From: Mesoflavibacter zeaxanthinifaciens DSM 18436
GTDB lineage: Bacteria > Bacteroidota > Bacteroidia > Flavobacteriales > Flavobacteriaceae
Direction: 5' to 3'
DNA: 64,000 bases
Assembly: GCF_000422365.1 (NCBI RefSeq)
Contig: NZ_KE383820.1
Span: forward strand, 153,324 to 217,323
Shown: piece by piece, positions 62,670-64,000 of the stretch
How positions within the stretch are numbered: the first letter of the stretch is position 1
How the letters are laid out: every line of letters begins with the position of its first letter
Notes under the pieces: model-generated
The model's database searches: none
The model's input: the letters and a program-made list of their open reading frames with translations, nothing else
What the model was told of the DNA's origin: nothing
Made by a program: the position numbers and the translations under genes

Positions 62670-62698
62670 TTTGCGTGTCAAAAAAAAAATTACATTTG
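62670..62698 (+). promoter_or_regulatory. Consensus Bacteroidota promoter (TTTG-17-TACATTTG)
   Basis: TTTG at 62670-62673 and TACATTTG at 62691-62698 are separated by 17 bases, matching the sigma-ABfr consensus TTTG-N17-19-TAnnTTTG in every fixed position. It is the only site I found in the window where both boxes match and are correctly spaced. Expected start near 62703-62706. It drives the structured region upstream of arginine decarboxylase. Confidence 0.8.
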
Positions 62699-62703
62699 TC
62701 ACG

Positions 62704-62880
62704 CATTTAGCTGAACATTTTGAAAACTGTTTCTATGTTCGGGCTTTTGAAAATTAGGAAGTCATATTCAAAAGCAGCTTACAGATTAAGTGACCGAATT
62801 TTAAAGCTAACTTCCGCATTTACTTCAATTTATGCTAGTCAGCATCAGCTTGGCTTTGTGCCAACTTATGACTTAAAAAT
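62704..62880 (+). ncRNA. Structured leader or small RNA candidate
   Basis: A perfect promoter lies just upstream. Elements: P1 GAACAT (62713-62718) with ATGTTC (62735-62740) plus inner GAAA/TTTC; P2 GCTTTTGAA (62743-62751) with TTCAAAAGC (62767-62775), nine perfect pairs; in the P2 loop AAGTCATA (62759-62766) is the exact inverse of TATGACTT (62867-62874), forming an 8-bp pseudoknot stacked on P2. Two small hairpins, ATGCT/AGCAT (62832-62845) and TTGGC/GCCAA (62850-62864), fall inside. GGAAGT (62757-62762) can instead pair with ACTTCC (62810-62815). No reading frame. The 3' end is uncertain; it may be the arginine decarboxylase leader or a separate RNA. Confidence 0.65.
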
Positions 62881-62966
62881 CCAAATTTGATATAATTCTT
62901 ATTATTTTTTTAACAGTAAATTTATACTGTTTTGGTAACTTTTTAGAAAATTTATAAAAAATAATA

Positions 62967-64000
62967 ATGAAAACTAAATACATAGATTTAATAAGTCAAA
63001 CTTTTGATTTTCCTCAAGAAGAGTTTGATTTAAAAAATAAAACATTACAATTTCATGACGTAGATTTAATGAAGTTGATTGAGGAATATGGTGCGCCATT
63101 AAAATTTACTTATCTACCTCAAATTTCTAATAATATCCAACGCGCAAAGCAGTGGTTTGCTAACGCGATAGATAAGCATAATTATAAAGGTAAATACAAC
63201 TATTGTTATTGTACAAAAAGCTCTCACTTTAAACATGTTTTAAATGAAGCTTTAAAAAACGATATTCATATAGAAACATCTTCTGCATTTGATATAGATA
63301 TTGTCGAAAATCTTAAAAAAGAAGGAAAAATTACTAATGATACCTTTGTTATTAGCAATGGTTTTAAACGTGAGCAGTATGTAACTAACATTGCTAGATT
63401 AATTAATAATGGTCATCATAATTGTATCCCTATAATTGATAATTATGAAGAAATTAATCTACTATCAGAAGAAATTAATGATAACTTTAAAGTAGGTATT
63501 AGAATTGCATCAGAAGAAGAGCCAAAATTTGAGTTTTATACCTCTCGTTTAGGTATAGGTTACAAAAATATTGTACCATTTTATAAAAACCAGATTAAAG
63601 ATAATCCAAAAGTAGAGCTTAAAATGCTTCACTTTTTTATAAATACAGGTATAAGGGATAATGCATATTACTGGAACGAGTTAATCAAATGTTTACGTGT
63701 TTATGTTAGCTTAAAAAAGATATGTCCAACATTAGATAGTTTAAATATTGGAGGTGGATTTCCTATAAAAAACTCGTTAGCTTTTGAGTTTGATTACGAG
63801 TATATGATAGATGAAATTTTAAATCAAATACAAACCATTTGTGATTTAGAAGGTGTAGATGTGCCAAATATTTTTACAGAATTTGGAAGTTTTACCGTAG
63901 GTGAAAGCGGAGGAGCAATCTATCAAGTGTTGTATCAAAAACAACAAAATGATCGCGAAAAATGGAATATGATAAATTCGTCTTTCATAACAACATTGCC
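62967..64000 (+). CDS. speA: Arginine decarboxylase (3' end cut by window)
   Basis: The frame starts at ATG 62967 and is open to the window edge, giving about 344 residues. It is a PLP-dependent alanine-racemase-fold decarboxylase of the Bacteroidota SpeA type. The likely PLP Lys is Lys84 in YCYCTKSSHF; HFFINTGI, LNIGGGFPI (phosphate-binding Gly stretch) and FTEFGSFTVGESG follow in family order. It makes agmatine from arginine, the first step to putrescine and spermidine. The leader is about 260 bases and strongly structured. The short basic N-terminus and the length fit the family; the C-terminal part is not visible. Confidence 0.9.
   Translation, partial: MKTKYIDLISQTFDFPQEEFDLKNKTLQFHDVDLMKLIEEYGAPLKFTYLPQISNNIQRAKQWFANAIDKHNYKGKYNYCYCTKSSHFKHVLNEALKNDIHIETSSAFDIDIVENLKKEGKITNDTFVISNGFKREQYVTNIARLINNGHHNCIPIIDNYEEINLLSEEINDNFKVGIRIASEEEPKFEFYTSRLGIGYKNIVPFYKNQIKDNPKVELKMLHFFINTGIRDNAYYWNELIKCLRVYVSLKKICPTLDSLNIGGGFPIKNSLAFEFDYEYMIDEILNQIQTICDLEGVDVPNIFTEFGSFTVGESGGAIYQVLYQKQQNDREKWNMINSSFITTL

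Follow-up and report, generated by a model that had tools for sequence, protein, structure and literature searches.

A conserved upstream ORF with an embedded pseudoknotted RNA as a putative cis-regulatory leader of the polyamine operon in Flavobacteriaceae

What kind of leader, if any, controls the arginine decarboxylase gene speA in Mesoflavibacter zeaxanthinifaciens DSM 18436 is the question raised by positions 62670–62966 of the window, that is, the whole 64,000-nt stretch of contig NZ_KE383820.1 analysed here (features are on the plus strand unless stated otherwise). A sequence-only reading had proposed a promoter followed by a noncoding, pseudoknotted RNA with two mutually exclusive pairings, possibly a riboswitch or regulated leader of a polyamine gene. 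The promoter, described as TTTG-N17-TAnnTTTG, was present at 62670–62698 as a Bacteroidota-type TTTG-N17-TACATTTG, read in the sequence with its boxes at 62670–62673 (TTTG) and 62691–62698 (TACATTTG). Within the 10–70 nt preceding the leader start codon, 138 of 156 speA leaders contained TnnnTTTG; TAnnTTTG occurred in 61 of the 156 (8.8 expected from a mononucleotide shuffle) and TTG-N18-22-TAnnTTTG in 12. From the promoter, the transcript is predicted to start just before or near 62700. One clade, comprising L017, L067 (plus strand), L221, L227, L228, L238 and others, has a different leader 5′ end (CGCATTGCC for TTTAGCTGAAC) with the TTTG box further upstream.

The gene downstream of the leader (62967–63998, running off the window) encodes a speA-type arginine decarboxylase, with PF02784 above its cut-off and the nearest NCBIfam models, PRK05354 and TIGR01273, both below theirs. 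The same two genes follow speA in the six named loci inspected; in L086, the one locus scanned, the first is an agmatinase (TIGR01230, above cut-off) and the next belongs to the deoxyhypusine-synthase family (PF01916 above cut-off, homospermidine model PRK00770 below), suggesting putrescine and, probably, homospermidine as the products of the operon. On the other side of the leader from speA lies a divergent fatty-acid-hydroxylase-type membrane gene (PF04116; 61698–62570, minus strand), which also stands beside the leader in the genus's second genome (L002) and gave no match in the other 15 loci of the first homologue set.

Comparison across relatives was needed to see the fold of the leader, since folding of the window stretch alone gave nothing significant (z −0.57). 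A DNA search of 60 genomes, the source genome included, found the core in 17, with speA directly downstream in 16 of these, and the 17 sequences were used to build a covariance model (R1, 122 nt, corresponding to 62700–62821). In Flavobacteriaceae, this core is a three-way junction with a loop–tail pseudoknot. Double-sided changes were seen in 13 of 25 base pairs in the first alignment of 17 sequences and in 24 of 25 in a larger alignment, where 91.7% of cells were paired and doubly changed cells numbered 272 as compared with 83.9 in shuffles; this alignment (A3) has 95 rows from 94 author-chosen loci fitted to R1, a model that leans towards helices Px, P2 and P3. As a control, sliding by one column lowered the paired cells to 51–56%. 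Specifically, Px (62738–62742 with 62794–62798) closes the junction, with double changes in 5/5 pairs and 97.5% of cells paired. P2 (62743–62751 with 62767–62775) is the perfect 9-bp hairpin with a 15-nt loop noted earlier from the sequence, and showed double changes in 9/9 pairs and 89.8% pairing. P3 (62778–62782 with 62786–62790), modelled with 5 bp and having 4 bp in the window, where the innermost pair is a mismatch, gave 5/5 and 84.8%. Some relatives have rewritten whole helices, as shown for Px in L078 and L081. A 5′ hairpin, P1 (62711–62716 with 62737–62742), considered as a rival of Px, was not supported, with double changes in 3/6 pairs and 2.8 in shuffles.

The two long-range pairings of the sequence-only reading exchanged their roles in this comparison. 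The P2-loop strand GGAAGT (62757–62762) pairs with the tail strand ACTTCC (62810–62815), and this helix, which was absent from the model used for alignment, showed double changes in 5/6 pairs and pairing in 95.6% of cells. In 151 of 156 leaders, at least 5 of its 6 positions were paired; it had been correctly identified, as a mere alternative, and is the actual pseudoknot. The pairing taken to be the main pseudoknot (62759–62766 with 62867–62874) does exist in the window and is not conserved, with at least 7 of 8 positions matched in 4 of 156 leaders. A switch between both pairings is thus not a conserved feature (4/156 vs 151/156). Covariation across the family bore out a conserved fold. Rfam, including 6S-Flavo, gave no match at the locus: two nearby matches were miRNA models far under their cut-offs, the one match in the window to reach a gathering score was a tRNA at a different place, and the 6S-Flavo RNA of this genome sits on another contig.

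The distribution of the RNA was closely tied to that of speA. R1 matched 190 of 397 Flavobacteriaceae genomes, 268 of which carry an arginine decarboxylase; the RNA was found in 185 of these 268 and in 5 of the 129 genomes lacking speA, an odds ratio of 55, for which the p-value overstates the association, as the species are related. One of the five speA-less carriers, G193, is 77% complete with its match at a contig end, so that the missing gene means little there. The speA start lay at most 600 nt downstream in 164 of 170 core matches examined, the six others being those of three genomes of genus g20 and of G301, the minus-strand copy in G202, and the match in G084 (L081), in which two ORFs of 138 and 143 residues stand between the RNA and speA and place the speA start about 1.4 kb past the core. 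Removal of identical cores left 164. Named carriers include Winogradskyella, Formosa, Psychroserpens, Tamlana, Bizionia, Olleya, Hanstruepera and Gaetbulibacter, and R1 matched 80 of 80 named loci, which were fetched by peptide similarity, favouring leaders with the peptide. Beyond the family, an order-level draw gave matches in 13 of 346 genomes, all 13 from Flavobacteriaceae (which the draw included), and a class-level draw gave 1 of 295, the source genome itself; the strict filters of these large searches lose weak copies, as shown by L214. Pathway genes with a 5′ leader that contains a conserved, structured RNA are what would be looked for in a riboswitch, and the proposal of a structured leader before a polyamine gene was in this respect strongly supported.

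The leader is in addition a coding sequence. Contrary to the description of the stretch as noncoding, it contains a 56-codon ORF conserved across leaders, running from TTG to TGA at 62720–62890 (LKTVSMFGLLKIRKSYSKAAYRLSDRILKLTSAFTSIYASQHQLGFVPTYDLKIQI). The 17 first homologues all share one [A/G/T]TG column as the start of the ORF, which extends across the core, the script having given an earlier in-frame start for L010 and L016. The script, which allowed a start 12–24 nt into the core, found the ORF in 169 of 170 core matches, and the one that it missed (L231) is visible by eye. The encoded peptide has 54–57 residues in 144 of 156 speA leaders (L167, whose ORF overlaps speA, being excluded from stop and length counts), ends in V or I in 153 of 157, and matched no Pfam or NCBIfam model above cut-offs. 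Its consensus end is YGF(I/V)PTTQxQI(Q/R)(I/V), more loosely GF[IV]PTTxxQI[QR][IV], then UGA, represented in the window by GFVPTYDLKIQI-TGA (62852–62890); some clades differ upstream of the end, e.g. AYWLNPIRI, and keep the last three residues in kind.

The selection acting on the two halves of this ORF was compared in 153 leaders of 50–60 residues. Where the residue was the same, codon identity was 0.817 in the RNA half and 0.517 in the last 14 codons, and in these 14 codons third positions were the most variable (0.60 vs 0.44 and 0.36), a mark of coding. The C-terminal end is selected as a peptide, with synonymous change free there. In the 80 named loci, an ORF of 40–75 residues ending in [ILFV][QR][IV] was found 30–200 nt upstream of 79 of 80 speA genes and of 0 of the 327 genes of other kinds; the first value is partly by construction, the loci having been fetched by peptide similarity, and the second is the informative control. 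A conserved short cis ORF upstream of the gene with C-terminal conservation, as expected of an arrest peptide, was thus found. An antizyme-like frameshift or leader–speA fusion was discarded, the frame difference being random over 157 leaders (61/51/45).

The stop codons were also biased. TGA closed the ORF in 145 of 156 leaders, or 40 of 50 once these were thinned at 80% core identity; the background was 11/464 for ORFs of at least 200 residues in the 80 named loci and 5/44 in the window; UAA or UAG was used in 11/156 and in 10/50 thinned leaders, so that UGA is not absolute. The base after the stop was U in 35 of the 50 thinned leaders. The start codon was UUG in 116/156 leaders and 26/50 after thinning, and less often AUG. 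UUG starts are weak, and this, like the stops other than UGA, speaks against the reading as an arrest leader given below.

Taken together, the region is probably a cis-regulatory leader of the polyamine operon that, by analogy with TnaC and Salmonella orf34–speF, on which the arrest model is patterned, would combine a putative UGA-arrest peptide with an embedded structured RNA. The ribosome would initiate at UUG, less often at AUG, about 20 nt into the core, and the first half of the ORF folds, as its covariation shows, into a junction locked by the pseudoknot, with a presumed role in sensing or timing. The peptide tail could then slow or block release factor 2 (RF2) at UGA in response to arginine or to a compound further along the pathway, and the state of the ribosome, stalled or released, would set the folding of the spacer and hence the transcription or translation of speA. 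The direction of control might be induction by substrate or repression by product. Possible roles of the in-ORF fold are to sense a ligand, to pace the first ribosome or to control initiation at the leader ORF; a binding function is favoured, because the fold is maintained by double changes and persists in copies that have lost the peptide end.

The possible read-out site in this model, the spacer between the leader stop and speA (62891–62966 in the window), is weakly structured. Spacers had a median length of 77 nt. The first 80 of 109 non-redundant spacers were scored, and their structure showed a modest excess over shuffles (mean z −1.47). No regular intrinsic terminator was seen, a terminator-like hairpin below −4 kcal/mol being present in 5 of these 80. 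The 7-bp hairpin proposed at 62912–62931 is real as an inverted repeat lying in the spacer; terminator-like hairpins are few in the family. With no regular terminator and only a slight excess of structure, the read-out of any stall is not visible, which speaks against the best reading.

The two components of the leader proved to be separable in natural genomes. In 83 genomes speA was present with no RNA match, and 22 of these were examined. The loose motif ORF was found in 11 of the 22 upstream regions as compared with 0.53 in shuffled sequences, and the strict motif [ILFV][QR][IV]-TGA in 6 of 22 as compared with 0.00; in the other 11 regions the script found no motif ORF, a point against the best reading. 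An unfiltered rescan gave weak RNA matches (E up to 0.0011) in L214, L262, L265, L266 and L272, all among the 11 motif-bearing regions, with the other six having no match at that level, suggesting that the RNA fades gradually and that the peptide can outlast it. Conversely, the RNA was kept at 104–133 bits in three g20 genomes and G301, where speA was not found; the peptide tail has been lost in g20 and still ends in QFRI in G301. Such RNA-only copies are not predicted by a purely speA-specific device. Five genomes carry a second copy of the RNA, of which L239 has no start codon, L240 ends in PVRI, and L238, L241 and L067 (minus strand) lack the motif. These second copies and those of g20 and G301 precede, on the same strand, two families of small acidic proteins, to which no Pfam or NCBIfam name could be given in scans of a single protein per kind plus two related ones. 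Since the copies before other genes retain the fold and have for the most part lost the motif, the peptide end is probably dispensable for the action of the RNA module.

Closer inspection of the genes next to these copies distinguished the two kinds of protein. The first is a very acidic protein of 92–103 residues with the sequence KR(I/V)IVD(Y/F).KL... or DRKIVDYQKL..., encoded downstream of the RNA in four speA-less genomes and of the second copy in G375 (L068, minus strand; L069, 2312–2590; L070, 2367–2645; L078, minus strand; L238, minus strand). The second comprises secreted-looking small acidic proteins, A(T/I)(Y/F)(D/E)G..(D/E)G.YYF..., downstream of the second copies in L067, L239, L240 and L241; similar-looking secreted-type proteins stand beside the RNA in g20 (L068, L070).

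A fuller version of the leader model, which we regard as less likely than not, places two sensors in the same ~170 nt, a pseudoknotted aptamer formed by the coding half of the ORF and an arrest peptide encoded by that ORF, which would read the state of the pathway at UGA. The RNA half would then be a new riboswitch class copied to genes for small acidic proteins, and the peptide half would give a Bacteroidota polyamine operon a leader that works by termination arrest. It is unlikely that the element is a riboswitch of the usual type, in which the junction and pseudoknot bind arginine, agmatine or a polyamine and control speA while the peptide is incidental; the compact fold, its strong covariation and its retention before other genes where the motif is mostly gone would be well explained, but the peptide C end and UGA are separately selected and are still present in leaders whose fold is weak or was not found.

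The RNA might instead act in trans, as a bifunctional or stand-alone small RNA whose gene usually lies beside speA. This is distinctly improbable. Retention in four genomes without detected speA and the second copies in five genomes speak for it; against this, all five second copies lie upstream of a same-strand gene, the speA leaders have no regular terminator after the RNA, and the association with speA is close. The stand-alone RNA that had been considered from the sequence, with an end near a T tract at 62904, is similarly weakened as an option: the T tract is present, and what remains in its favour are the copies in genomes without speA.

The conservation of the length and C-terminal sequence of the ORF could in principle mean that it encodes, in place of a leader peptide, a small protein that is stable and has a function in the polyamine pathway. 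This appears very improbable: protein function would not lead one to expect a bias for UGA, UUG starts predominate, and the central part of the peptide varies almost freely, with residues at codons 34–41 identical in 25% of comparisons. Least probable of all is that the fold is a protein-binding site which the ribosome merely passes, since, although maintenance through double changes implies that its shape matters, the peptide end and UGA would be unexplained and there is no candidate protein.

The cis-regulatory leader with a putative arrest peptide, our preferred reading, was then set against known systems. Among structured RNAs, the spermidine riboswitch likewise serves polyamine control but is a SAM-I variant, and Rfam gave no match to it here; a term search of the main text of its description found no speA, arginine decarboxylase, Bacteroid- or Flavobacteri- (PMC10853860), and its authors write that further polyamine riboswitch classes seem certain to await discovery (PMC10853860). 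6S-Flavo and other Bacteroidetes motifs are structured RNAs of the same phylum, 6S-Flavo being located elsewhere in the genome. By the same type of search, the main text of Weinberg et al. 2010 had no speA, polyamine or arginine decarboxylase (PMC2864571), and that of a Flavobacterium psychrophilum transcriptome paper did not contain ‘polyamine’ (PMC9723704). In the open-access literature searched, we found no prior description of this leader, no paper on a leader peptide with arginine decarboxylase in Bacteroidetes and none on a translation-arrest leader peptide in Flavobacteri-. A leader-peptide device for a polyamine decarboxylase is of an already known kind, and no precedent was found for a termination-arrest leader of a Bacteroidota polyamine operon.

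Among leader peptides, SpeFL/orf34 of speF in gamma-proteobacteria is also a short ORF before a polyamine-pathway decarboxylase, and Salmonella orf34 ends in UGA (PMC6386406). Translation of Salmonella orf34 to its stop affects Rho termination and leader folding (PMC6386406), and residues 23 and 24 of the 24 of TnaC are proposed to hinder RF2 at UGA (PMC8429421). The signal is ornithine for SpeFL and tryptophan for TnaC. SpeFL/orf34 acts in cis via ribosomes at its stop, and the same is proposed here by analogy. The differences are that SpeFL has 34 residues compared with about 55 here, precedes ornithine decarboxylase and not arginine decarboxylase, and belongs to another phylum; its key structures, as described, involve a hairpin past the stop and the speF ribosome-binding site (PMC6386406), whereas the covarying pseudoknot here lies within the ORF. 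Two of the leader peptides here matched no Pfam family up to E 10, including DUF2618, the family of SpeFL with its consecutive arginines. TnaC of tnaCAB is likewise a leader peptide ending at UGA and acting through ribosomes at that codon (PMC8429421), and hindrance of RF2 would be the shared step. It is a 24-residue, Rho-dependent tryptophan sensor as compared with a leader of about 55 residues here, and the proposed likeness to TnaC and SpeFL is one of action. We know of no conserved RNA fold embedded in TnaC, nor of any leader ORF of this type with a covarying pseudoknot inside it. Gene control in Flavobacteriaceae is little known and polyamine sensing by RNA is debated. A leader peptide and a riboswitch are as a rule two distinct devices; in this case a strongly covarying pseudoknot and a separately selected peptide are written in shared codons, and natural leaders having the RNA minus the peptide end, or the peptide with a weak or unrecognised RNA, offer clean tests.
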